Positions 25,472 through 36,826 of a stretch of 63,343 bases of DNA are shown piece after piece. Position 1 is the first letter of the stretch. Each line of letters begins with the position of its first letter. The DNA lies in assembly GCA_017307865.1 (NCBI GenBank), contig JAFKGE010000037.1, positions 1 to 63,343 of the forward strand. Reading direction: 5' to 3'. The translations under genes and the position numbers were made by a program. Source of the stretch: Burkholderiales bacterium. GTDB lineage: Bacteria; Pseudomonadota; Gammaproteobacteria; Burkholderiales; Burkholderiaceae_C. The notes under the pieces are model-generated. The model searched no databases and was not told the origin of the DNA. It saw only the letters and a program-made list of their open reading frames with translations.

Positions 25472-25495
25472 GGTCGTCGCCGGCCGGCGGCGACC
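25472..25495. other. GC-rich palindrome between convergent genes
   Basis: GGTCGTCGCCGG pairs with CCGGCGGCGACC (one T.G pair). It lies between the phasin stop and the stop of the convergent cytochrome b fusion gene. It has no T-run, so it is a possible bidirectional structure rather than a proven terminator. Confidence 0.4.
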
Positions 25496-27408
25496 TATGC
25501 CAGCGCGGCTGGTTCGGCCGGCTTGGGCGTGTTGAGGACGAAGGCGTCCGAGAAGCAGGCGCCTTCCTCCAGCCCGTGCGACAGGAACTCCGGCACGGCG
25601 GTCTCCACCATCATGGTCGAGCCGCAGGCGTAGAGCTCCTGCCCGCGCATGTCCGGAAAATCCTCCAGCACCGCCTGGTGCACCAGGCCCCGCCGGCCCT
25701 CCCAGCCATCGCCGGGCGCACCGTCGGACAGCACCGGAACAAAGCGGAAATTGGTGTGCTCGCGCTGCCAGGTCTCGGCCAGCTCGCGCATGTACAGGTC
25801 GGACACCTGGCGCACGCCCCAGTACAGGCGCATGGGCCGCGTGATGCCGCGGGTAAAGGCGTCCTCGATGATGCTCTTGACCGGTGCAAAACCCGTGGCT
25901 CCGGCCAGGAAGATGATGGGCCGCTCGCCCTCGCGCAGCGTGAAGCGCCCCAGCGGCCCTTCCAGGCGCAGCGTGTCGCCCACCTTCATGCCGTCGAACA
26001 CGTGGCCGGTGAAGCGTCCGCCCGGAATGCGGCGCACGTGCAGGTCGATCAGCGGACGCTGCATCGGCGGGTTGGCAAACGAGAAGGCGCGGCGCTCGCC
26101 GTCCTCCAGGATCACGTTCAGGTACTGGCCGGCAATGAAGTCCAGCTTGAGGTCGGCCGGCGGCTGCAGCAGCAGGCGGATCACCTCGGGCGCCAGGCGC
26201 TCCATGCCCACCACGGTGGCGTCGAACTCGTGCTTGGTCAAAGGCTCCAGCGTCTCGACGTCGATCTCCAGGTCTTCCAGTGGCACGGCGCAGCACATCA
26301 GCGCCTGGCCGCGCTCGCGCATGGCGGCGGTGAGCGTGGCCGGCTGATAGGGGCCGTGGTCGAAGGTGCCGTTCAGCACCGTGCATACGCACAGCCCGCA
26401 GCCGCCGGCGCGGCAGTCGTACTGCAGCGGCAGCTCGGCGCGCAGGCCGGCCTCCAGAATGGTTTCGCCCCGGCGCGCCGCCACGTGGCGCGCGTCGGGG
26501 TGCACGGTGATGTTCAGCGTGCGCGCGGCGGCGCCCTTGCGGCGCCACACCAGCCAGGGCTGCACGAACAGCAGGCCCGACACGGCCAGCACCAGCGCCC
26601 AGGTCCAGGCCGGCCCCCAAATGTGGACCAGCGGATACAGGCCCAGCAGCAGCCAGTCGAGCTTCAGCTCGCTGGGCACCACGGCCATGTGCGCCGGCCC
26701 GCCCTGGCTGAGCACGGGCTGCACCAGCGCGAGCACCACCAGCATCACGCCGGCAGCGATGGCAATCGGCTTGGGCGGCTGCATGGTTGCCTTGGGCACG
26801 CGCTGCACGTGCACCCACATCAGCAGCAGGGTGACCAGCGGCACGCCGATGTGGATGAACACCAGCAGCGAGAACAGCCGGTCGCTCACCGTGCTGTCGT
26901 AGATGAAGTTGCGGATCAGCGAGCCGCGGAACATCGGGATCCAGTCCAGCCACTCGAAGCTGGCCGTGGTCACGTACTGCGCCAGCTGGTCCCAGGGCAG
27001 CATGTAGCCGTTGGCGCCGGCGACGTACACCAGCCAGATCAGCGCCACGCCCGTGACCCACGACACCCAGCGAAAGCCGCGCAGGCGGTCGAACGCGAAG
27101 TAGCGCAGCATGTGGATCACCATGGTCACCACCATGGCGTCGGACGCGTAGCGGTGCACGCTGCGCACGATGCCGCCGATGAACCACTGCCGGTGCGTCA
27201 GGCCCTCTACCGACTGGAAGGCGCCCGTCACGCTGGTGTCGAAAAAGGCGAACAGGTACAGGCCCGTGCCGGCGACGATCCAGAACAGGAAGAAGGTGAG
27301 CGAGCCCAGGTGGTAATAGGGGTTCAGGCGGTCGCCGAAGGCGCGGTTGAACACCGCCTCCACCTGCATGAAGCCCCAGCGCATCAGCGCCTGCAATGCG
27401 CCGATCAT
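25495..27408 (-). CDS. Fusion protein: cytochrome b + [2Fe-2S] ferredoxin + FAD/NAD(P) reductase
   Basis: A 637-residue three-part fusion. Residues 1-about 295 are a membrane cytochrome b (b6-like) with paired heme histidines in RSVHRYASDAMVVTMVIH and FIHIGVPLVTLLLMWVHVQR. Residues about 300-390 are a plant-type [2Fe-2S] ferredoxin: Cys332-x4-Cys337-x2-Cys340 in DCRAGGCGLC and a fourth Cys in LMCCAVP. The rest is a ferredoxin-reductase module with RAFSFANPP (FAD), FLAGATGFAPVKSII (NAD ribose/phosphate) and YACGSTMMVE. It could move electrons between NAD(P)H and membrane hemes or quinone. It is the last gene of the respiratory operon and overlaps the previous one (ATGA). No PEWY quinol motif is seen. 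Confidence 0.85.
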   Translation of the reverse strand: MIGALQALMRWGFMQVEAVFNRAFGDRLNPYYHLGSLTFFLFWIVAGTGLYLFAFFDTSVTGAFQSVEGLTHRQWFIGGIVRSVHRYASDAMVVTMVIHMLRYFAFDRLRGFRWVSWVTGVALIWLVYVAGANGYMLPWDQLAQYVTTASFEWLDWIPMFRGSLIRNFIYDSTVSDRLFSLLVFIHIGVPLVTLLLMWVHVQRVPKATMQPPKPIAIAAGVMLVVLALVQPVLSQGGPAHMAVVPSELKLDWLLLGLYPLVHIWGPAWTWALVLAVSGLLFVQPWLVWRRKGAAARTLNITVHPDARHVAARRGETILEAGLRAELPLQYDCRAGGCGLCVCTVLNGTFDHGPYQPATLTAAMRERGQALMCCAVPLEDLEIDVETLEPLTKHEFDATVVGMERLAPEVIRLLLQPPADLKLDFIAGQYLNVILEDGERRAFSFANPPMQRPLIDLHVRRIPGGRFTGHVFDGMKVGDTLRLEGPLGRFTLREGERPIIFLAGATGFAPVKSIIEDAFTRGITRPMRLYWGVRQVSDLYMRELAETWQREHTNFRFVPVLSDGAPGDGWEGRRGLVHQAVLEDFPDMRGQELYACGSTMMVETAVPEFLSHGLEEGACFSDAFVLNTPKPAEPAALA

Positions 27409-28832
27409 GCCGCCACCTCCCGCGCGCCGGCGCGCATGGCGCGCAGTACCACGATCACGAACAGCAGGCCGCCGACCACGGCCAGCAGCCCGCCCAGGCC
27501 CATCAGGCCCATGCCGGCCACCTCGCCGGTGCTGCGCAGCACCTGCTCGCTGCCGGCCACCTTGCGCTGCACGCCGTAGCCGCCCGACCACACCAGGCCG
27601 GTGATGTGCATCAACTGTCCCAGCCCGTACACCCAGGGCTGCCAGCGCGCCATGCGCCCGCGCGGGCGGCCATAGCCCAGCGTGGGCAACAGGTGGTAGA
27701 CGATGCCCATCAGCGCCAGCGTCACGCCGACGATGCAGCCGTGGTAGTGCGCCGGAATCTTGACGTTGCTGCCGCTGATCAGCATGCCGATCACGCCGCC
27801 GCAGGCAAACAGCAGCATCGACGTGACCAGCGCGCCCCACAGCGGCTTTTGCTCGTCGCGCAGGCGGCGCAGCGGCGCCAGCGCCAGCACCACGGCCAGC
27901 GCGATGGGGAAGATGGCCAGGCCGCCGCCCACGCGCATGGCCCAAGTGTGCAGCTGGCGGTTTTCCACGCTGATGGCGCTGTGGGCCACGTAGGCGTAGG
28001 GCGTGACGAACACGCTGACGAGCGCCAGCATGAGCAGCAGCAGCGCGATGCGCGGGCTCAGGAACAATCGCCCGCCGCAGGCCTGTGCCAGCCACAGCCA
28101 CACCACCAGCATCAGCAGCGTCCAGGCGAACTGCAGCGCGTGGCCGCCGCCCCAGAACAGGATTTCGTAATAGGTGCGCAGATCCAGCTGCGTCGGCACG
28201 TCCCACAGCGACCAGGCGAAGGCCAGCAGGGCCACGGCCACGCAGATGACGCTGGCCGTCAGGCCGAAGCGCAGCGCGCGCTCGCCGTCAATCACGCCGC
28301 CCAGGCGCGGGGCGGCCAGCAGGCTGCGCAGCACCTGCACGCCCAGGCCCAGGCCGAAGATCGCCAGGCCGGCCAGGAACAGCGGCCCGTGCAGCACCGG
28401 AATGTAGTTGGCCATGATGGCCTCGCCCGGGCGGATGAAGGCGCCCGCCGCCATCAGCGCCGTACCGCTGCCGCACAGGCCCAGCGCGGCCCAGCTCCAA
28501 CCCAGGGCGCGCTCGGTGCCGTTCAGGCTCCACAGCATGCCGGCCATGGCGGCAAACCACACCAGAACCGACAGGTCCACGTGCACCACCAGCGCCACGC
28601 GGAAGAAGTCGGCCACCGGAAACCACTGGTTCAGCCCCGGCGTGCGCGCCAGCACCAGCAAGACCGAATAAAGCCCCGAGCCCGCCAGCGCGGCCAGGCC
28701 CAGCGCCAGCCAGGCGCGCGCCAGGGCGCGCTGCGCGGTGGTGGGTTGGGGCAGCGCGTAGGCGCTGGGGGTGAGCGCGGCGTGGCCGAACAGCGACGCC
28801 GGGCCGAGGGCGGGGTGGGAGAGCGTGTTCAT
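27405..28832 (-). CDS. Heme-copper oxidase subunit I-like protein (C-type/NorB-like), non-canonical active site
   Basis: A 475-residue polytopic protein (about 12 helices) with the heme ligand pattern of heme-copper oxidases: His84 in VVHVDLSVLVWF (helix II), His362 and His364 in KIPAHYHGCIVG (helix X), and His231 in GGGHALQFAW (helix VI, one metal-B ligand). The paired His-His that supplies two CuB ligands in helix VII is not visible; the corresponding segment reads FVTPYAYVAHSAIS (a single His284). It is therefore unlikely to be an ordinary cbb3 oxidase. It could be an NO reductase-like or other divergent family. Overlaps on both sides show coupling in the operon. Confidence 0.7.
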   Translation of the reverse strand: MNTLSHPALGPASLFGHAALTPSAYALPQPTTAQRALARAWLALGLAALAGSGLYSVLLVLARTPGLNQWFPVADFFRVALVVHVDLSVLVWFAAMAGMLWSLNGTERALGWSWAALGLCGSGTALMAAGAFIRPGEAIMANYIPVLHGPLFLAGLAIFGLGLGVQVLRSLLAAPRLGGVIDGERALRFGLTASVICVAVALLAFAWSLWDVPTQLDLRTYYEILFWGGGHALQFAWTLLMLVVWLWLAQACGGRLFLSPRIALLLLMLALVSVFVTPYAYVAHSAISVENRQLHTWAMRVGGGLAIFPIALAVVLALAPLRRLRDEQKPLWGALVTSMLLFACGGVIGMLISGSNVKIPAHYHGCIVGVTLALMGIVYHLLPTLGYGRPRGRMARWQPWVYGLGQLMHITGLVWSGGYGVQRKVAGSEQVLRSTGEVAGMGLMGLGGLLAVVGGLLFVIVVLRAMRAGAREVAA

Positions 28833-29365
28833 TGGAAAACGATGCCGCCCTTCTCGGCGTTGTAGTCGATCACCAGGACCTGCGATGGCTTGAGCGTGAT
28901 CGTGGCTTCGCGCTGCGCCGTGAAGCCGGCGGCGCGCACGTCGTCCTTCATGCGCACGGCGATCTTTTGTTCGCCCGCCGGCACCTGCAGGCGCTGGTAC
29001 ACGGCCGAGCTGCCGTCGCGCTTCAGGCCACTGGGCTCGGCGGTGCGCTGCAGCACCCGCTGGCCGTTGATGTCCACCTCGATGCTGACGGGCGAGCGCT
29101 CGCGCGGGCAGATTTGCTTGGGCCGCATCTGCGGCGGCAGCTTGGCTTTTTCTTCCTCGGTCAGCGGGCGGCAGTCGCCCACCGGCTTGCCGGTGTGGGT
29201 GAAGCTGATCTTGATCAGCGCATCGCCCGGCGGCAGCGGGTGATACACCGGCCAGTGCGAGAACACGCCGATGAAGACGGCGAACAGCGCGTACAGCACG
29301 GCCTGGCCCAGCCAGGCACCGACCGTGACGGGGCGCCGCGTCGCCGTGGCGGCAGAGGCATTCAT
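28829..29365 (-). CDS. Membrane-anchored periplasmic protein of the respiratory operon (unknown)
   Basis: A 178-residue protein with one N-terminal membrane helix (about residues 17-40) and a periplasmic, mainly beta domain: ALIKISFTHTGKPVGDCRPL, then PVSIEVDINGQRVLQRTAE and an immunoglobulin-like tail ending VIDYNAEKGGIVFQ. I do not recognise the family. Topology and size resemble a subunit II without a CuA site (no CxxxC or Met/His set). Position between the cytochrome b fusion and the subunit I-like gene, with four-base overlaps to both, suggests it is a structural partner of that subunit I. Confidence 0.7.
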   Translation of the reverse strand: MNASAATATRRPVTVGAWLGQAVLYALFAVFIGVFSHWPVYHPLPPGDALIKISFTHTGKPVGDCRPLTEEEKAKLPPQMRPKQICPRERSPVSIEVDINGQRVLQRTAEPSGLKRDGSSAVYQRLQVPAGEQKIAVRMKDDVRAAGFTAQREATITLKPSQVLVIDYNAEKGGIVFQ

Positions 29366-30933
29366 GACAGCACCTCGAGGGTGGAGGGTGAAGGGGGGGC
29401 GCCGTGCGTGGTCGCCGCACCGCGCAGGCGATCCAGCGCATCGCGCAGGTCCGCGCCGTCGACCTGCGCCCAGCGCTGGCGCGGCACCGAAGGCCGCAGG
29501 TGCGGCTCGCGCTGGCCATGCATGCGCTCGCGCAGCAGCTGCGGGCCGTCGCGGAACGCGCATTCGCCCGGCGTGCAGCCCTGGATCAGCACGCCAGCAG
29601 CGCCGTCGCGCAGCGCGTATTCGATGAACGCGGGCGGCAGCTGGCCGGCACACGCCAGCTCGATCCGCACCACGTCGTGCGCCTGCAGGGCCGGCGCGCG
29701 CGGCGCCTGGCCGCAGGCGAAGGCGACGATGGGGCGCGTGGCGCCGCTGGCCTGCAGGCCCGTGCGCAACTGCTGGCGCAGGCGGTGCACGGGCAGCTGG
29801 GGCAGGTCGATGCCGGTGACCAGCTGCGCCAGGCTGCGAAACGGCGTGGACGAGGGGCAGGCGCCGGCGCAGATGCCGCAGCTGGCGCAGCGCTCGGCAT
29901 CGACCTGGGCCAGCGCGTGCCCCGGCTTGCCCAACGCAAAATGAGGGTGCGCCACCATGGTGATGGCGGCGTAAGGGCAGTCGTCCACGCAGCGGCGGCA
30001 GCCGCTGCAGTGCGCTGGATCGACCACGGCCACCGGCGCCGTCGGCGCGCTGCGCGGCCAGGCCGGCAGCAGCAAGAGCAGCGCCAGCGCGCCCACCACC
30101 AGCACCCAGGCCCCGGTGTTCGACACGGCGCCCGCCAGGGGATGCAGAAAGAGCAGCAGCCAGTCCAGCGCCAGCGCCGCCGGCACCTGCGCCACGTCGG
30201 CCGCCGGGCCGCTGGTGATGGGCGCCAGCGCGGCCAGGCCCAGGAACACGGCGATCAGGGCCGCCGCCATGGGCCCCGGCGGCACCACGCGCGCGCGCGG
30301 CAGGCGCTGGATGTGAAACCACAGCCCGAAGGTCATCAGCAGGGCCACGCCCAGGTGCACGAACACGAACAGGGAGAACAGCCGGTCGCCTACGGCGCCG
30401 GCGCTGAGAAAGTTGCGTGCCAGCGGCGCGCCCAGCCAGGGCAGCGCGTCCAGCCATTCGGCGGTGGCCAGGGCCGAGTACTGGCCCAGCGCGTCCCAGT
30501 TGAGCCAGAAGCCGCCGATGGCGCACGTGAAGGCAAACACGATCAGCGGCACGCCGGTCAGCCAGCTGAAGCCGTGGTGGCCGGCAAAGCGCCCGTGCAG
30601 CCATTCGCGCAGCGCATGCAGGCCCATCAGCACCACCAGGGCGTCGGCGGCGTAGCGGTGCACGCTGCGCAGCCAGCCGCCGTAGAACCAGGGCCAGGCG
30701 GACAGGCGCTCGATCGACGCATGCGCGCCGCTGGCCGAGGTGTCGATGACGGCGTACAGATAGATGCCGCTGGTCGCCAGGCTCCAGAAGCACAGAAAGC
30801 CCAGGCTGCCCAGATGGTGCAGCGGGTTCAGCGCCGGGCCGGTGAGCCGGTCGATGCCGCGCTCCAGCGCCTGCCAGGCCGTGAGCAGCTGCAGGCGCGG
30901 CGCGCCGGCGAGCGGGGCCGCGACGGCCGTCAA
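29362..30933 (-). CDS. Fusion protein: cytochrome b + two [4Fe-4S] ferredoxin clusters + MvhD-like iron-sulfur domain
   Basis: A 523-residue fusion. Residues 1-about 285 form a cytochrome b like the one in the neighbouring fusion, with heme histidines in RSVHRYAADALVVLMGLH and FVHLGVALLMTFGLWFHIQR. From Cys309 there are two [4Fe-4S] motifs, HCSGCRRCVDDCPYAAI and RCASCGICAGACPSSTPF. The C-terminus (about residues 375-470) resembles the hydrogenase/heterodisulfide reductase iron-sulfur subunit MvhD/FrhD: IVAFACG, then VLIQGCTPGECAFRDG. The start is TTG 30933, chosen because it has an AGGAGG site and a TTGA overlap with the SCO stop; no ATG is available. Probably a membrane electron-transfer protein. 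Confidence 0.8.
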   Translation of the reverse strand: MTAVAAPLAGAPRLQLLTAWQALERGIDRLTGPALNPLHHLGSLGFLCFWSLATSGIYLYAVIDTSASGAHASIERLSAWPWFYGGWLRSVHRYAADALVVLMGLHALREWLHGRFAGHHGFSWLTGVPLIVFAFTCAIGGFWLNWDALGQYSALATAEWLDALPWLGAPLARNFLSAGAVGDRLFSLFVFVHLGVALLMTFGLWFHIQRLPRARVVPPGPMAAALIAVFLGLAALAPITSGPAADVAQVPAALALDWLLLFLHPLAGAVSNTGAWVLVVGALALLLLLPAWPRSAPTAPVAVVDPAHCSGCRRCVDDCPYAAITMVAHPHFALGKPGHALAQVDAERCASCGICAGACPSSTPFRSLAQLVTGIDLPQLPVHRLRQQLRTGLQASGATRPIVAFACGQAPRAPALQAHDVVRIELACAGQLPPAFIEYALRDGAAGVLIQGCTPGECAFRDGPQLLRERMHGQREPHLRPSVPRQRWAQVDGADLRDALDRLRGAATTHGAPPSPSTLEVLS

Positions 30934-31835
30934 TGCAACGCCTCCTGCGGCCGCACGGCCAGGGAGCGGGCCTGCCGGCGCGCGCGGCGCGAGCGGCGCC
31001 ACTCGGCCACGCCGTAGCCGATCATCCACAGGAAGAACACCGCGCCGCCCACCAGCTCCATCACCAGCGCGTACTTGAAGCGGTAGCTGCCGGTCTCGGG
31101 GTCGTACACGGTGCACAGGATGCGCACGCGCTCCAGCAGGCCGGACAGGGTCTCGCGCTGGGTGACGGGCGCGCGCCCAAGCAGCTGGCGCAGCGGCTCG
31201 CCCAGCTGCTGCGCCGTCAGCTTGTCGCCCCACACCTGGGTGGCGATCTTGCCGTCGGCGTCGAGCACGGTGACGCCCAGCACGTGGTCGAACCCGGCCG
31301 GCGTGGCCAGGTAGCTGAAGCCGAAGGCGCGCGTGAGCGGCTCCACGATCTTGGCGTGCGGGCTGAGAAATTCCCAGTTGGGGTACTTGATGCCGTACTG
31401 GGTGGCGAACGAGCGCAGCGCCACCGGCGAATCGGCCGGCTGGTTGAAGCCGATGCTGACGACGTTGAACTGGTTGGGGCTGAGCAGTTTGTCGAGGCCC
31501 TTGACGGCCTCGTGCAGGTTGCGTGTGGTGGCGGGGCAGATCTCGAAGCAGCCGGTGTAGATGAAGCTCACCAGCAGCGGCTTGCCGCGGTACTGCGACA
31601 GGCGCACCGGCTTGCCCTGGCGGTCGAGAAAGGTGAAATCGGATGGGGTGCTGCCGATGACCGCCTGGCCGGCGGCCAGGGCGGCCGCCTCGTCCAGGCG
31701 CGGCACGGTGCTGGTCACGGCATCCTGCGCCTGCGCCCATCCGGCGGCGCCCAGCAGGGCTGCCGCCGCCAGCGGCCCCAGCATGCGTTGCGCGCGCCGG
31801 GCCGACCGAATCACCGCTTTCAGAACCACGTTCAA
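30930..31835 (-). CDS. SCO1/SenC family protein with C-terminal membrane anchor
   Basis: A 301-residue exported thioredoxin-fold copper chaperone. The signal peptide ends near AGWAQAQDA. The copper motif CxxxC is in YTGCFEICPATTRN, and the distal His ligand in GFDHVLGVTVLD. Beyond the SCO domain there is an extra region ending in a membrane helix (GGAVFFLWMIGYGVAEWRR), longer than usual. SCO proteins load CuA of subunit II, which is encoded two genes upstream in the same operon, so the role is clear. Confidence 0.9.
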   Translation of the reverse strand: MNVVLKAVIRSARRAQRMLGPLAAAALLGAAGWAQAQDAVTSTVPRLDEAAALAAGQAVIGSTPSDFTFLDRQGKPVRLSQYRGKPLLVSFIYTGCFEICPATTRNLHEAVKGLDKLLSPNQFNVVSIGFNQPADSPVALRSFATQYGIKYPNWEFLSPHAKIVEPLTRAFGFSYLATPAGFDHVLGVTVLDADGKIATQVWGDKLTAQQLGEPLRQLLGRAPVTQRETLSGLLERVRILCTVYDPETGSYRFKYALVMELVGGAVFFLWMIGYGVAEWRRSRRARRQARSLAVRPQEALH

Positions 31836-31883
31836 ACTCCAGACCGCCGCGCCACGGACGCCGCGGCGGTCAATGGCCCGGCT

Positions 31884-33584
31884 TCAGCTCAGGCCCCACA
31901 GGGTGGACAGGTACTTCCAGTTGATGAAGTAGTACAGCACGAAGGCCACCAGGAACACCATGGCCAGCACGAAGGTGCCGGGCGCGGCAAAGCCGGCCGA
32001 GCCCGCCGTTTGCGCCACCACGGTGGGGGCGGTGCGCGGGATCGGCGTGAAGGTGGCGCGCTCGGTGCCGCGATCCAGGCGCTTGCCCCAGATCAGCGAG
32101 CCGACCGTGACGTAGATATAGATCGCGCCGCCGACAATCGCCGCCACGCCACCGATGCCGACCAGGCCCATCATCAGATAGGCCGCGCCCGGCCATTCGT
32201 AGGCCAGCGGGTTGCCGGAAAAGGCCATGTCCCAGTGGCGGCGCGACACGCCCAGGGTGCCGGCGCCCATCATCACCAGGCAGAAGAAGTACATCGAGAA
32301 GCCGAAGATGTACGGCTGCCACTTGGCCAGCGTGGGCGCGATCATCTCGCGCTTGAACAGCACCGGGATCAGGTAGTAGGTCAGCGCCATGAAGGTGAGC
32401 GTGGTGCCCACGACGACGGTGGCGTGGAAGTGCCCCGGCACGTAGATCGTGTTGTGGATGATCATGTTGAGCTGCTCGGTGCCCATCATCACGCCCGAGA
32501 TGCCGCCCAGGAAGCCGAAGCCGATGATCGAGATGAACACGCCCGAGAACGTGGGGTTGCCCCAGGGCGCCTTGCGCAGCCACTCGAACAGGCCCTTGGT
32601 GAAGCCCTTTTCGCGCTGCGCCACTTCCATCGCGCCGGGCACCGTCAGGCCGTGCAGCATCGAGGCCAGCACCGCGAAGTACATGAAGTAGCTGGTGTTG
32701 ACGATCTTCCAGGGCGTGGACAGGCCCGGGTCGGCCAGCAGGTGGTGGGCGCTGGCCAGTTGCAAAAACAGGATGTAGAGCAGGAAGGCCGTGCGGCTGA
32801 CGCGCTCGCTCATGGGCTTGGCGCCGAAGACCACGGCCGCCACCAGGTACCACACCGAGATGTGCGCCGCCACGTTGATCTGCTGGGACGAGTGGCCCAG
32901 CGCCCACCAGATGGTGCGGTAGGCCAGCGGGTCGACCTGCTTGAGCAGGCCGATCGACATCAGCCAGGTGGGCACCAGAATGATGGCGCCCGACAGCAGC
33001 GTGAACACGGCGATGATGGCCGCCGTGATGGCGCCCATGGTGACCAGCGGCACCGAGCCCTGGTAGGTGCGGTCGCGCTTGGCGACGACCAGGGTGCCGA
33101 AGAACACGCCGCAGCCGATCAGCGCGCCGACCGCGAACAGGATGATCGTCAGGTAGAACCAGGACGAGGCCATCATCGGCACGTAGCTGGTCATCATGAC
33201 GCTGGAGCTGCCCTGGAAGACGACGATGTTGTTGCCGACCGAGCCGATCACCATCAGCGCGAAGGCCAGCCAGGCGATCCTGGGCGTGGCGATGCGGCAG
33301 CGCAGCAGGGTGGAGGCGCAAAAATACAGGATGGCGATCTCGAAGAAGATCAGCCAGAAGATCAGCATGTCCAGCCCGTGGGCCGTCAGCACCATGTAGA
33401 AGGTGTCGGCCTCGAGCCAGTGCACCGCCGGCCAGCGCGTGAGCACCACGCCGATGGCCAGCAGGCCGCCGAAGGCCAGAAACAGCACGCCGGCAACGGC
33501 GTTCCAGATGATCAGCTTCTCGGCCTGCGCCTCGAATTGCAGGCCCGATCGCGGGCAGGTGCGGTAGGTGGTGGCTTGTCCCAT
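31884..33584 (-). CDS. Cytochrome c oxidase subunit I-like protein, B-family type
   Basis: A 566-residue subunit I with 12-14 membrane helices. Heme ligands: His69 (LTAHGLDM) for the low-spin heme, His385/His387 in VPGHFHATVV. CuB ligands: His231 in IWWALGHSSQQINVAA and His280/His281 in ASAHHLLADPG. The tyrosine normally cross-linked to the helix VI His in O2 reductases (GHPxVY) is replaced: the sequence is GHSSQQ. It pairs with the CuA subunit II 10 bases upstream. It may reduce O2 with a different active-site residue or NO; I cannot decide. GAGGGA RBS before ATG 33584. Confidence 0.85.
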   Translation of the reverse strand: MGQATTYRTCPRSGLQFEAQAEKLIIWNAVAGVLFLAFGGLLAIGVVLTRWPAVHWLEADTFYMVLTAHGLDMLIFWLIFFEIAILYFCASTLLRCRIATPRIAWLAFALMVIGSVGNNIVVFQGSSSVMMTSYVPMMASSWFYLTIILFAVGALIGCGVFFGTLVVAKRDRTYQGSVPLVTMGAITAAIIAVFTLLSGAIILVPTWLMSIGLLKQVDPLAYRTIWWALGHSSQQINVAAHISVWYLVAAVVFGAKPMSERVSRTAFLLYILFLQLASAHHLLADPGLSTPWKIVNTSYFMYFAVLASMLHGLTVPGAMEVAQREKGFTKGLFEWLRKAPWGNPTFSGVFISIIGFGFLGGISGVMMGTEQLNMIIHNTIYVPGHFHATVVVGTTLTFMALTYYLIPVLFKREMIAPTLAKWQPYIFGFSMYFFCLVMMGAGTLGVSRRHWDMAFSGNPLAYEWPGAAYLMMGLVGIGGVAAIVGGAIYIYVTVGSLIWGKRLDRGTERATFTPIPRTAPTVVAQTAGSAGFAAPGTFVLAMVFLVAFVLYYFINWKYLSTLWGLS

Positions 33585-33594
33585 GGTGCGTCCC

Positions 33595-34137
33595 TCAGTC
33601 TTTGATGTACATCCGGCCCACCATGGTGTGGTGGCCAATGCCACAGAACTCGTTGCACACGATCGAGATCTGGCCCGATTGGTTGGGGGTGATGGTCAGC
33701 ACGTGCTCGAAGCCGGGCACCATCTGGATGTTGATGTTCTGCGGCTGCAGCGAGAAGCCGTGGTTGTAGTCCATGGCCGTCAGGTGCAGGCGGTACTTCT
33801 CGCCCTTCTTCAGCTCCAGGATGGGCCAGAAGTTCCACAGCCGGCCCAGCATGTACACGTCGGCGCCGGGCGGCGGGGCCACCACCGGGGTCTTTTGCTC
33901 GCCCTCGGTGCGCACCGTGTACTTGTCGACCATGGCCTGCGCCGCGGTCATGAACTTCTCGGGCGTGGTGCGGTAGGTCTCGGTCGACAGGTTCTGGTTG
34001 CCCCAGACGTGCCAGCCGACCATCATGACGAACATGATCAGGCACCAGGTCAGCGACAGCACGATCCACGTGCCCTCGACCCGGTCGATGGGATGCTTGT
34101 ACCAAAGCCGTTCCGACGGCGGCAGGATGGCGCTCAT
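33595..34137 (-). CDS. Cytochrome c oxidase subunit II (CuA)
   Basis: A 180-residue subunit II with one N-terminal membrane helix (about residues 24-43) and a cupredoxin domain. The CuA motif CNEFCGIGHHTM (CxxxCxxxHxxM) and the upstream His in MDYNHGFSL are complete. The single-helix topology is that of B-family (ba3-type) oxidases rather than aa3. It receives electrons from cytochrome c or another carrier; the window encodes no cytochrome c, so the donor is unknown. Confidence 0.92.
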   Translation of the reverse strand: MSAILPPSERLWYKHPIDRVEGTWIVLSLTWCLIMFVMMVGWHVWGNQNLSTETYRTTPEKFMTAAQAMVDKYTVRTEGEQKTPVVAPPPGADVYMLGRLWNFWPILELKKGEKYRLHLTAMDYNHGFSLQPQNINIQMVPGFEHVLTITPNQSGQISIVCNEFCGIGHHTMVGRMYIKD

Positions 34138-34177
34138 GGTGTTGAACCTCTTGTTGGAAGGACGATCGCGCGCCGGC

Positions 34178-34345
34178 CTACTTGGCCAGGGGCAGCATCA
34201 TGATTTCGACCACGCCCCACAGGTTGTAGACCAGCATGGGGATCAGCACGCCCAGGAACAGCAGGATGAAAGGGCTGTCCAGCAGCTGCTGCACCCAGGG
34301 AATGGGCGCGTTGGGATCGTTCAGGTCGTCGTGGTTGGGGTCCAT
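34178..34345 (-). CDS. Small single-helix oxidase subunit (first gene of the operon)
   Basis: A 55-residue protein with an acidic Asn/Asp-rich start and one membrane helix (about residues 24-48; SPFILLFLGVLIPMLVYNLW). It has a strong GGAGG six to seven bases before ATG 34345, stands 40 bases before the CuA subunit gene and reads the same way. Small one-helix subunits are common in ba3-type oxidases (subunit IIa). Family not recognised; the call is by size, topology and position. Confidence 0.75.
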   Translation of the reverse strand: MDPNHDDLNDPNAPIPWVQQLLDSPFILLFLGVLIPMLVYNLWGVVEIMMLPLAK

Positions 34346-34496
34346 CCTTGCCTCCTGCAAGCCCGTCCGCAGCCCCGCGCGGCGGACGTTGGTCGATGGA
34401 TTCTGGAGTTCGGTGGTCGGTATGGATTTGACTTGGAACAAACATATGCAAGCCATGCTTGCCGCACGTCAAGTCCGGGCACTACGATCGCCCCCC
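34346..34496. promoter_or_regulatory. Divergent promoter region of the respiratory operon and heme A synthase-like gene
   Basis: 151 bp between divergent genes, more AT-rich than its surroundings. It contains TTGACT on the plus strand (34428) and TTGACG on the minus strand (reading from 34471). Neither has a convincing -10 at 16-18 bases. I see no TTGAT-N4-ATCAA FNR site. Confidence 0.35.
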
Positions 34497-35444
34497 ATGA
34501 CGACGGCACGCACCCGGTCTCCTGCAATACCCGGCACTGCGGCCGGCGCCGATCCGTCCCTGCGCTGGCTGCGCCGCCTGGCCTGGCTGTGCGCCGCGCT
34601 GGTACTGGCCATCACCAGCCTGAGCGCCAGCCTGCGGCTGGCCAAGGCCGGCATCGGCTGCGCGCCCTGGCCGGCCTGCCACGGCGCGGCGCAGCAGGCC
34701 CTGCTGGCGCCGCCGGCCGCCGGCGACGAGGCGGCGCAGGCGCCGGCCAGCACCACGCTCGATGCGGTGCGCTCGGCGCATCGCGTGCTGGCGGTGGCCA
34801 CCCTGTTCTTGATCCTGGTCATGGGCGCGGCGTGCCGGCACGCACGCCGCGCGCGTGCCGAGTGGTGGGCGCTGCTGGCCGTCACTCTGTTCCTGGCCGG
34901 GCTGGGGCCCTGGTCCGCGCGCTCGGCGCTGCCGGCGGTGGCGCTGGGCAATCTGCTGGGCGGCTTTGCCATGCTGGCGCTCAGCGTGCGGCTGGCCGCG
35001 CCGCGCCGCTGGGCCGTTACGCCAGCCGTGCGCGCGTGGCTGTGGGCCGCCGCCGTGGCGCTGCTGGCGCAGATCGTACTGGGCGGGCTGGCCAGCACCA
35101 CGGGCTCGATCCTGAGTTGCGACGGCCTGGCCGACTGCTGGCGCGCGGCGGCCGGCCAGGGCTGGGCGGCGCTGGACCCCTGGCGCCTGCCCGGCTCGGC
35201 GGCGGGCGCGCCGGTGCAGTGGCTGCACCGGGTGGCGACCGGCGCGGTGCTGCTGCTGGCGCTGCCGCTGGCCTGGCGCCTGCGCCGCATCGATGCCTGG
35301 GGCGCCGGCGTGCTGGGCGCAGCGCTGCTGGCGCTCGCCGTGCTGGGGCCGGTGATGGTGGGTGCCGGTTTTGCCTTTAGCCTGGCGCTGGGGCACAACC
35401 AGCTGGCGGCTATCGCGCTGGCGGCGTTGGCGCGCTGGCTATGA
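34497..35444 (+). CDS. COX15/CtaA family heme A synthase-like protein
   Basis: A 315-residue membrane protein with eight predicted helices. It follows the CtaA plan with heme-binding histidines in SAHRVLAVA, WLHRVATGAVLL and ALGHNQLAAIAL, plus a Cys pair in GIGCAPWPACHG after the first helix. CtaA converts heme O to heme A. Being divergent from the oxidase operon suggests that the subunit I proteins carry a heme A-type cofactor. No ctaB (heme O synthase) is in the window. The stop codon lies in fold-back repeat copy 3. Confidence 0.75.
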   Translation: MTTARTRSPAIPGTAAGADPSLRWLRRLAWLCAALVLAITSLSASLRLAKAGIGCAPWPACHGAAQQALLAPPAAGDEAAQAPASTTLDAVRSAHRVLAVATLFLILVMGAACRHARRARAEWWALLAVTLFLAGLGPWSARSALPAVALGNLLGGFAMLALSVRLAAPRRWAVTPAVRAWLWAAAVALLAQIVLGGLASTTGSILSCDGLADCWRAAAGQGWAALDPWRLPGSAAGAPVQWLHRVATGAVLLLALPLAWRLRRIDAWGAGVLGAALLALAVLGPVMVGAGFAFSLALGHNQLAAIALAALARWL

Positions 35445-35601
35445 AGGCATGAACGAATCCCGCCCGCCCGCCTTGACCGCCAAAACCCGCCCGCTCGGCG
35501 TTGCAAATGCTCGCCGTAGCCCGAGTTACGCCTGCGCTTTGCGCCTTGATCGGACGCGTTTTGGCGATCCTTTCGGGAGCTCTGGATTCATTCACGCCTT
35601 C
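35442..35601. repeat. Fold-back repeat, family 1, copy 3
   Basis: Outer arms GAAGGCATGAACGAATCC (35443) and GGATTCATTCACGCCTTC (35584) are complementary at 16 of 18 positions. The core is the same as copy 2 with a weaker tip. It contains the stop codons of both convergent genes, ctaA-like and mltB-like. Confidence 0.8.
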
Positions 35602-36826
35602 GCAGCGCCGCCAGCAGCTTCTGCCCCGCGCGTCCGTCGGCCTTCATGCCCAGGCGCTGCTGCTCGGCCTGGATGGCCTCGCGCGTCTTGGCGCCGATCA
35701 GGCCGTCGGCGGCGCCGATGTCGTGGCCGCGCGCCAGCAGCAGGGTTTGCAGCTCGCGGTTCTCGGCGCGCGACAGGCCGGGGTCGTCGGTGGGCCAGGG
35801 CGTGACGAAGGCGATGGGCGCCGCCGGCTCGGCGATCAGGTCGGCCAGGTGGGCGATGGCCAGGGCGTAGTTTTCGCTGGCGTTGTAGCGATACAGCGCG
35901 TCGAAGTTGCGGCCGACCAGAAAGGCCGGCCCGCCGGCGGCCGGAATCATCAGGCCGGCGCTGGGCAAGTCGTCGGGCAGCGGCTGGCCGCCCGCCAGCG
36001 TCAGGCCGGCGCGGCGCCAGGCGGCGATGGGCTGTTTGTTTTTGCGGCTGGCGCCGGAGGTGTCGAAGCCCGGCGGCAGCCGCACCTCGAAGCCCCAGGG
36101 CTGGCCGGGCCGCCAGCCGGCGTTTTGCAGGAACTTGGCGGTGGATGCCAGCGCGTCGGGCACGCTGTCCACGATGTCGCGCCGGCCGTCGCCGTCGAAG
36201 TCCACCGCGTTGGCGAAGAAGGTGCTGGGCATGAACTGCGTCTGCCCGAACGCGCCGGCCCAGGAGCCGGTCAGCTTGTCGGCCGGGATGTGGCCTTCCT
36301 GCAGGATGCGCAGCGCGGCGGCGAATTCGCCGCGAAAGTAGCCTTGCCGGCGGCCGAAGCACGACAGCGTGGCCAGCGACTGCACCAGCGGGCGCCCGCC
36401 CAGGTTCTGGCCGAAGTTGCTCTCCACACCCCACACGCCGGTGACGACGGCGGCCGGCACGTCCGTCTGCTGCTCTATTTTTTGCAGCGTGCTCCGCCAC
36501 TTGGCAAAGGCCGCGCGTCCGTCCTGCACGCGCTCGGCGTCGTCCAGCATGGCCAGGTAGTCCCACACGGGGGTGGTGAACTCGGGCTGGCGGTTGAGCA
36601 GCACCAGCACCGACGGGTCGGGCGCCAGGCCCGTGGTGGCCTGCGCGAAGGTCGCGCCGCTGACGGCGCTGAAGGCCGGCGTGCCCTTCAGGCGGGCCAG
36701 GCAGGCGCTGAATTCGGCCGGGTCGGCGCTGGGGGTGGCGTCTTGCGCCAGGGCGGGCAGGGCGGCGCTCAGGCCGGCGACCAGGGTCCAGGTCAGGCGC
36801 AGGAGGCGATGGTGGTGCGAAATCAT
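35588..36826 (-). CDS. Lytic murein transglycosylase, MltB family, with peptidoglycan-binding domain
   Basis: A 412-residue periplasmic enzyme that cleaves glycan strands to 1,6-anhydroMurNAc. A signal peptide (cleavage near PALAQDA) is followed by the SLT_2/MltB domain with the catalytic Glu in VTGVWGVESNFGQNLGG, GAFGQTQFMPSTFFANA and VDFDGDGRRDIVDSVPDAL. The C-terminal PG_binding_1 domain is about residues 340-408. The last codons RRRE-stop are formed by the right arm of fold-back repeat copy 3. Confidence 0.93.
   Translation of the reverse strand: MISHHHRLLRLTWTLVAGLSAALPALAQDATPSADPAEFSACLARLKGTPAFSAVSGATFAQATTGLAPDPSVLVLLNRQPEFTTPVWDYLAMLDDAERVQDGRAAFAKWRSTLQKIEQQTDVPAAVVTGVWGVESNFGQNLGGRPLVQSLATLSCFGRRQGYFRGEFAAALRILQEGHIPADKLTGSWAGAFGQTQFMPSTFFANAVDFDGDGRRDIVDSVPDALASTAKFLQNAGWRPGQPWGFEVRLPPGFDTSGASRKNKQPIAAWRRAGLTLAGGQPLPDDLPSAGLMIPAAGGPAFLVGRNFDALYRYNASENYALAIAHLADLIAEPAAPIAFVTPWPTDDPGLSRAENRELQTLLLARGHDIGAADGLIGAKTREAIQAEQQRLGMKADGRAGQKLLAALRRRE

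Follow-up and report, generated by a model that had tools for sequence, protein, structure and literature searches.

A denitrification-linked gene cluster in a Burkholderiales bacterium with an eNOR-like heme-copper reductase, two cytochrome b fusions and an oxidase homologue lacking a normal CuB site

Introduction

The DNA considered here, referred to below as the window, is a stretch of 63,343 nucleotides (positions 1 to 63,343, forward strand, of contig JAFKGE010000037.1) from the assembly GCA_017307865.1 of a Burkholderiales bacterium within Burkholderiaceae_C. It contains a cluster of eight respiratory genes, here called g1 to g8 in order of transcription, all on the minus strand. The cluster is genuine, widely distributed and coherent: an operon linked to denitrification, with a known though little-studied type of nitric oxide (NO) reductase at its base. 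Published work cited by PMC number is represented here by excerpts, and statements on its content are limited to these.

The gene cluster and its surroundings

The cluster opens with g1 (34345-34178), which encodes a 55-residue protein with a single hydrophobic helix (residues 21-39) and no Pfam family. It is followed by the gene for a CuA subunit II of 180 residues (g2, 34137-33595), whose COX2 score of 20.4 bits falls just below the cut-off of 22, and by that for a 566-residue heme-copper subunit I (g3, 33584-31884), which Pfam assigns to COX1 and which an alignment of its ligands marks as Gln-type (eNOR-like). Next come g4 (31835-30930), an SCO/SenC copper-delivery protein (PF02630, SCO1-SenC, 51.4 bits) of 301 residues if read from the TTG at 31835 or 284 if read from the ATG at 31784, and g5 (30933-29362), a 523-residue protein with a TTG start in which a diheme cytochrome b is fused to two [4Fe-4S] clusters and an FlpD/MvhD-like region (Cytochrome_B, Fer4 and FlpD). 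The remaining genes encode a 178-residue protein without a Pfam family that has one transmembrane helix and a beta-sandwich in its AlphaFold2 model (g6, 29365-28829), a COX1-fold protein of 475 residues without a normal CuB site (g7, 28832-27405; PF00115, 53.9 bits) and a 637-residue diheme cytochrome b joined to plant-type [2Fe-2S], FAD and NAD(P) domains (g8, 27408-25495; Cytochrome_B, Fer2, FAD_binding_6 and NAD_binding_1). Four-base overlaps occur at the g4/g5, g5/g6, g6/g7 and g7/g8 junctions. A first-pass annotation of this DNA had listed the same eight genes with their order and overlaps, and all were confirmed as open reading frames; its domain labels are backed by Pfam, with the shortfall already given for g2, and its view that the genes form one expression unit is supported. 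It had overlooked a gene that diverges from g1 and a probable FNR-type box. The former (34497..35444, plus strand) encodes a ctaA-like heme A synthase (COX15/CtaA; PF02628, 58.6 bits on the open reading frame 34236-35444), with the ATG at 34497 chosen provisionally as its start. The latter, a candidate FNR/Dnr-type site with the sequence TTGTTCCAAGTCAA (34428..34441, minus strand), lies about 90 bases upstream of g1 and agrees with the consensus TTGAT-N4-ATCAA at 8 of 10 positions.

A Gln-type reductase core

The CuA ligand set of g2 is complete (H126, C161, E163, C165, H169 and M172) and conserved in a 66-sequence alignment, and a 67-sequence alignment shows that all six metal-ligand histidines of g3 (H69, H231, H280, H281, H385 and H387) are conserved too. 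At the position of the catalytic tyrosine, g3 carries Q235, within the motif GHSSQQ in the window. Glutamine occupies this position, as part of GHxSQQxN, in 30/30 g3 loci, the window included, and all 66 close relatives of g3 combine GHxSQQxN with the HH of helix VII and the HxH of helix X. Aligned with the ba3 tyrosine is Gln in g3 and its relatives, but Tyr in 11 other plasmid reference proteins (from Haloarcula, Natrialba, Geobacillus, Deinococcus and others). The clade of g3 also holds Gln-type proteins from Thermus thermophilus and Thermomicrobium plasmids (tree support 0.998), and g3 is 46 % identical to the T. thermophilus plasmid homologue. On the T. thermophilus plasmids, Rrf2 and DUF542 genes come after this homologue, with YwiC at a greater distance; the Rrf2 regulator and DUF542 protein we take to be NO/Fe-S stress genes. 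As a separate observation, the Gln-type subunit I of two T. thermophilus plasmids (L150:11983-13665 and L152:2983-4668) has GHFK where GHFH or AHFH stands elsewhere, so that Lys replaces His as the second helix-X ligand, that of the low-spin heme.

According to PMC8756737, the active-site residue is Tyr in O2 reductases, Glu in cNOR and qNOR, Asn in sNOR, Asp in gNOR and Gln in eNOR, and the published eNOR set includes a Thermus sequence; eNOR has also been reported in Gallionellaceae (PMC10734462). By this published residue g3 is matched to eNOR, whose sequence mark it carries, and the earlier statement that set the cluster apart from every known oxidase and NO reductase is not supported in that form, as judged against the excerpted text of PMC8756737. 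The two share a B-type subunit I, complete heme and CuB histidines, Gln in place of Tyr and a CuA subunit II; however, eNOR is described with subunits I and II (PMC8756737) or in an operon with NirK (PMC4653789), and the excerpts mention no companions of the g5-g8 kind. The sNOR of ammonia oxidisers (norSY-senC-orf1) likewise unites subunit I, a CuA subunit II and SenC/SCO, and it too has been suggested to be an NO reductase or a high-affinity oxidase, but Asn is listed at its active site (PMC8756737, excerpt), the name norSY-senC-orf1 includes no cytochrome b fusions, and g3, with Gln, was not assigned to it. Ammonia monooxygenase matches were found in 0/7 genomes (the six with g3 but not g7 in the class sample described below, plus G365, which has a weak g3-like match), in a search whose controls gave no match either. 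The ba3 oxidase of T. thermophilus is a close sequence match of g3 (E ~1e-38), but it has Tyr and a full CuB site; with Gln instead of the helix-VI Tyr, g3 departs from the B-type O2 reductases at this residue. Nor does g3 fit the cNOR/qNOR pattern of an active-site Glu in a NorB-type sequence, as it has Gln, and the qNOR of the host is a separate gene (L005).

Two cytochrome b fusions and a possible partner

The membrane halves of g5 and g8 each retain four heme-ligand histidines that are conserved in alignments (H92, H106, H193 and H207 in g5; H85, H99, H186 and H200 in g8), with six helices in g5 and five in g8 by hydropathy. In g5, this module is extended by eight ferredoxin cysteines and by an FlpD-like region containing C407, C428, C453 and C458; its C-terminal half, after the two [4Fe-4S] clusters, matches FlpD with 44.8 bits over 54 of 123 positions. 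This half resembles the MvhD/FlpD and HdrA2-type Fe-S modules, which have FlpD after two [4Fe-4S] clusters; in g5, however, the module is fused to a membrane diheme cytochrome b, and no hydrogenase or HdrA is encoded among the eight genes. In g8, the [2Fe-2S] cysteines are C332, C337, C340 and C372, after which the FAD/NAD(P) reductase follows. The association of g5 with g3 extends beyond loci that contain g7, as g5 adjoins g3 in 4/4 genomes read at length that have g3 without g7 (L180-L183); it does so in Defluviimonas as well, where it is annotated merely as a cytochrome b N-terminal domain protein. Additionally, g5 and g6 form a single protein in L271, in which the g6 profile scores 171 bits at residues 520-680. 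The AlphaFold2 model of g6, with a predicted local distance difference test (pLDDT) score of 94.6, has conserved cysteines C65 and C86 and suggests a beta-sandwich on the periplasmic side of the membrane; compared with PDB folds, it gave no match at E<=0.001. In another relative (L270:2875-5412, minus strand), the reductase half of g8 is replaced by a flavodoxin-FAD-NAD half, giving a membrane diflavin reductase with cytochrome b, and the same cluster carries NnrS, CtaG and PCuAC genes. Because two different NAD-type flavin reductases are thus found on the same membrane module, NAD(P)H is favoured as the donor and would deliver electrons to the cytochrome b modules.

An oxidase fold without the CuB site

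The first-pass annotation had called g7 a second subunit I unrelated to g3, a view that can no longer be held: the two are homologous, at 24 % identity with a pairwise E of 3e-16 and a profile-profile probability of 99.8 (E 1.4e-29). The AlphaFold2 model of g7 (pLDDT 88.1) finds its best PDB matches among ba3 oxidases (Foldseek E 5.8e-9), the best being that of T. thermophilus, from which g7 differs in the absence of Tyr and of two CuB ligands. In a family alignment of 44 members (the window, 7 close and 36 other sequences), H231, Q234, H362 and H364 are invariant, H84 is kept in 42/44 (one gap, one Tyr) and the R423/K424 pair in 43/44, so that the heme ligands, namely the low-spin pair H84/H364 and the high-spin H362, are retained. 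However, the helix-VII His-His of CuB is absent from all 44, and H231 is the only CuB ligand left. At the corresponding position, g7 has T277-P278 by sequence register, or a gap by profile alignment. Between residues 235 and 359, His occurs in more than 30 % of members only at columns 237 (24/44) and 291 (14/44), and no other invariant His that might replace the CuB ligands was found in the 44 members. The string HH occurs between the g7 motifs in 3/44 diverse and 8/80 close proteins, the three being near 291 or 236-237 and outside helix VII; H284 of the window g7 lies near helix VII and is not conserved in the family. The missing pair argues against g7 as a second working oxidase, a reading that is judged unlikely. 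A tree placed g7 next to qNOR, but both branches are very long and the placement was given no weight. One g7 copy (L177:1592) is without H84, R423 and K424, and may be decaying or repurposed.

Recurrence and distribution

When GTDB species genomes were scanned with the g7 alignment, at least 543 places matched, and the best 80 were analysed; these loci were fetched through g7 alone, and some of the stretches end at contig edges. Matches above 40 bits were obtained for g1 in 65 of them, g2 in 65, g3 in 69, g4 in 73, g5 in 73, g6 in 78, g7 in 80 and g8 in 77. Among the 65 loci selected for holding g1, g3 and g7, g2, g4 and g6 were each present in 65, g8 in 64 and g5 in 61. The first-pass annotation had proposed a search for the eight families in other genomes, and they do recur; because they recur together in loci fetched through g7, the cluster is not a product of chance. 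The locus titles among the best 80 name Comamonadaceae, Burkholderiales, Rhodocyclaceae, Lysobacterales and others, and named carriers include Comamonas granuli, Simplicispira and Ramlibacter. The layout varies: some loci have the order g4-g8-g6-g5-g7, and locus L101 contains g8, g6, g5 and g7 with no g1-g4 in the ~6 kb upstream. A UbiA-type gene (ctaB, heme O synthase) was seen by eye between g3 and g4 in 10/12 loci and is annotated there in Defluviimonas too, although the window has no ctaB at that place; a ctaB match occurs in 64/80 loci. CtaA lies near the cluster in 37/80 loci according to a small hidden Markov model, and a neighbour cluster of 44 loci is of the CtaA family by eye. In three relatives (L274:9594-9989, L276:13294-13734 and Defluviimonas L149:14532-14936), hemerythrin-family genes lie within the cluster or at its end.

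In a class sample of 369 genomes, a strong g3 match (>300 bits) was found in 36, a strong g7 match (>150 bits) in 46 and both in 30, leaving 16 genomes with g7 alone and 6 of the 36 with g3 alone. Closer to the host, no g7 was found in the 12 same-genus genomes searched, several of which are incomplete, and g7 is present in one further genome of the host's family (G698). From this patchy occurrence among the host's relatives, it follows that the cluster has been patchily kept or acquired. A search for g7 in plasmids gave no match.

Link to denitrification and regulation

Within the class sample, the cytochrome cd1 nitrite reductase was called at E<=1e-40 and cNOR or qNOR (c/qNOR) at E<=1e-15, with c/qNOR matches of 66-89 bits not individually classified. 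Cytochrome cd1 occurs in 74/369 genomes, comprising 32 of the 36 with g3 vs 42 of the 333 without it (Fisher p 2e-21, a value that is too small, as the genomes are related by descent and kinship is uncorrected). It is found in 8/16 genomes with g7 but no g3, vs 34/317 with neither. Among the cd1 genomes, a c/qNOR match is absent from 20/32 with g3 vs 5/42 without (p 6e-6, likewise uncorrected for kinship), and the contrast persists when genomes less than 90 % complete are removed (16/28 vs 3/40). The neighbours in the 80 loci, in families named from one Pfam-searched representative per cluster, include cd1-type proteins (15), Crp/Fnr regulators (15), U32 proteins (two clusters, 8 and 6), UbiX-like flavoproteins (8), UbiD (7), NnrS (4) and NirDL (4); the U32 proteins are presumably of the UbiU/UbiV kind. 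Boxes like that of the window, matching TTGAT-N4-ATCAA at 8 or more of 10 positions, occur in 49 of 66 160-bp stretches upstream of g1, whereas they turn up in 7 % of dinucleotide shuffles (2640 in all), and each of four permuted motifs matched in 1-3 of 66 stretches.

The host genome (3.9 Mb) itself has a cytochrome cd1 gene (505.8 bits). No copper nitrite reductase scored above the cut-off (best 181 bits vs 296), nor did NosZ with the one model run, of the TAT (twin-arginine translocation) type (best 24.9 bits). Its other COX1-family genes encode aa3-type and cbb3-type subunits I, a divergent ccoN-like protein and a 777-residue qNOR, the last classified by eye from its sequence. The divergent ccoN-like gene (L003, G000:C59:17590-18828) scores 250 bits in a 587-residue frame and is present besides the cbb3 ccoN. 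Within the window, just past ctaA, a minus-strand gene (35588-36826) encodes a lytic transglycosylase (SLT_2) with a peptidoglycan-binding domain.

Proposed function and competing explanations

The cluster probably encodes a Gln-type (eNOR-like) NO reductase together with a dedicated electron supply, a reading that leans on sequence and to which we assign a probability of about 0.62. On this model, g2 with its CuA site and g3 with its full heme and CuB ligands and Gln for Tyr would form a two-subunit reductase core along with the small g1, the cofactors of which would be assembled with the help of SCO (g4), the divergent CtaA and, in relatives, CtaB. An FNR/Dnr-type regulator would switch the operon on under low O2 or NO, and NO from the cell's cytochrome cd1 would be converted to N2O at g2/g3. 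Electrons are predicted to enter through g8, with NAD(P)H as their source, and through g5, where a ferredoxin-like protein would supply them; in this direction, the b hemes would hand them on either to the quinone pool or straight to CuA. On the same model, g6 may be a partner of g5, and g7, a subunit with the oxidase fold and hemes but no CuB, would most likely serve as an electron relay or in heme insertion, and not as a second terminal reductase. The electron route drawn in the first-pass annotation survives in part: membrane cytochromes b with NAD(P)H-type and Fe-S/FlpD modules do adjoin a heme-copper reductase, but its 'two terminal reductases' do not stand, as g7 is without two of the three CuB histidines. 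A more far-reaching proposal, offered tentatively, is that g7 represents a distinct and widespread heme-copper class that has given up CuB while retaining the oxidase fold and both hemes, and that is part of an NO-reducing complex with the Gln-type core and both cytochromes b, in which NAD(P)H and ferredoxin might be oxidised directly for NO reduction, bypassing the quinone/cytochrome c route.

Several observations weigh against the reading of the cluster as an NO reductase with its own electron supply. The active-site Gln is a criterion of sequence; the host's qNOR, aa3 and cbb3 genes mean that g3 is not its sole sink for NO or O2; a c/qNOR match also occurs in 12 of the 32 cd1-positive g3 genomes, and 4 of the 36 g3 genomes have no cd1; and the annotations of Thermus and Thermomicrobium show no cytochrome b next to g3. 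The full g8 fusion, moreover, is present in only 3/369 class genomes (three candidates scored per genome), with matches split over two contigs in G346 and far from the g3 cluster in G099; because of this rarity, g8 is taken to be tied to the window's closer relatives and dispensable elsewhere. It might be argued that g2/g3 is instead a high-affinity microaerobic O2 reductase that merely occurs in denitrifiers, with g5 and g8 as NAD(P)H:quinone routes feeding it. The CuA subunit II, the B-type fold, the ctaA, ctaB and SCO neighbours and the FNR-type control would all suit such an enzyme, and a paper on N. europaea argues similarly that the related B-type 'sNOR' may be an oxidase (PMC6967387). 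However, the g3 sequences checked have Gln where O2 reductases have Tyr, and g3 is strongly associated with cd1 and with the absence of c/qNOR, so that this explanation is judged improbable. We give an equally small chance to a reversed flow, in which g8, and g5 as well, would oxidise quinol and reduce NAD(P)+ or ferredoxin, the reductase core being only co-regulated. The model for this is the 'novel quinol reductase' of Accumulibacter, an unusual cytochrome of the b/b6 kind which, like g8, carries flavin and NAD(P) domains; a sequence relation between the two is putative. Its proposed role is quinone re-oxidation for the tricarboxylic acid cycle, and the excerpts of PMC4930944, PMC9041414 and PMC2289847 refer to a protein that re-oxidises quinone or to an unusual cytochrome. 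An independent role for g8 is suggested by the copy that G099 carries away from the cluster, whereas the presence of g8 in 64 of the 65 g1+g3+g7 loci and the different NAD-type fusion in L270 fit a donor better than an acceptor, though they are no proof.

With the NO-reductase reading retained for the cluster as a whole, the role of g7 can be weighed from the company that it keeps elsewhere. This was surveyed in 35 stretches with g7 but no g3 or g5, a partly hand-picked, non-random set that includes some short contigs and some genomes with a g3 cluster elsewhere. That g7 is a true second terminal reductase for O2 or NO, heme-only or with a rebuilt metal site and fed by CuA, seems unlikely: both heme sites and the propionate-type Arg/Lys are kept, and a CuA subunit II gene overlaps g7 in L222 and precedes g7 and CtaA on one strand in L231, but one CuB ligand is left, without an invariant His to substitute for the helix-VII pair missing in 44/44, and a CuA match of at least 80 bits was obtained in only 5/35 of these stretches. 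That g7 helps to assemble heme-copper enzymes or delivers heme to them is a possibility to be taken seriously, if still a minority one in our estimate. Within 400 bp of g7, ctaA was found in 11 of the 35 stretches, ctaB in 4 and either in 14; in L271, the g5-g6 fusion, CtaA and g7 are consecutive, away from that genome's g3. In two genomes of 2.4 and 1.9 Mb (L221 and L225), ctaA and a 5-aminolevulinate-synthase-like gene, recognized by eye, stand beside g7 with no g3 nearby. Further members of the family have a long C-terminal extension like tetratricopeptide repeats (TPR; L214-L219, by eye), or adjoin a cytochrome-c-assembly (PF01578) gene with a separate TPR gene after it (L178); a separate TPR gene occurs in L179 also. 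On the other hand, 21/35 stretches have neither ctaA nor ctaB inside 400 bp, g3 does without g7 in 6/36 genomes, and the constancy of the low- and high-spin heme ligands suggests a part in electron transfer. Together, the contexts of g7 point to heme handling as well as to electron transfer.

Significance

The new part of the cluster is g7 and its role; no description of this CuB-less oxidase homologue, or of its company of electron-input modules, was found in the literature searched. A search of the open literature, at the level of titles and the starts of abstracts, for CuB-less oxidase homologues and for MvhD-cytochrome b proteins with a heme-copper or NO reductase gave no description of this gene set, and papers on NOR types and on Accumulibacter yielded none either, although the subscription literature may contain one. 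A family of COX1-fold proteins free of CuB would provide a natural test of what this fold can do without copper, and the presence of two cytochrome b fusions suggests that NAD(P)H or ferredoxin feeds a respiratory NO reductase directly. Should g3 prove to be the NO reductase at work in many NirS bacteria that have neither cNOR nor qNOR, then surveys based on norB only would misjudge which bacteria make N2O.

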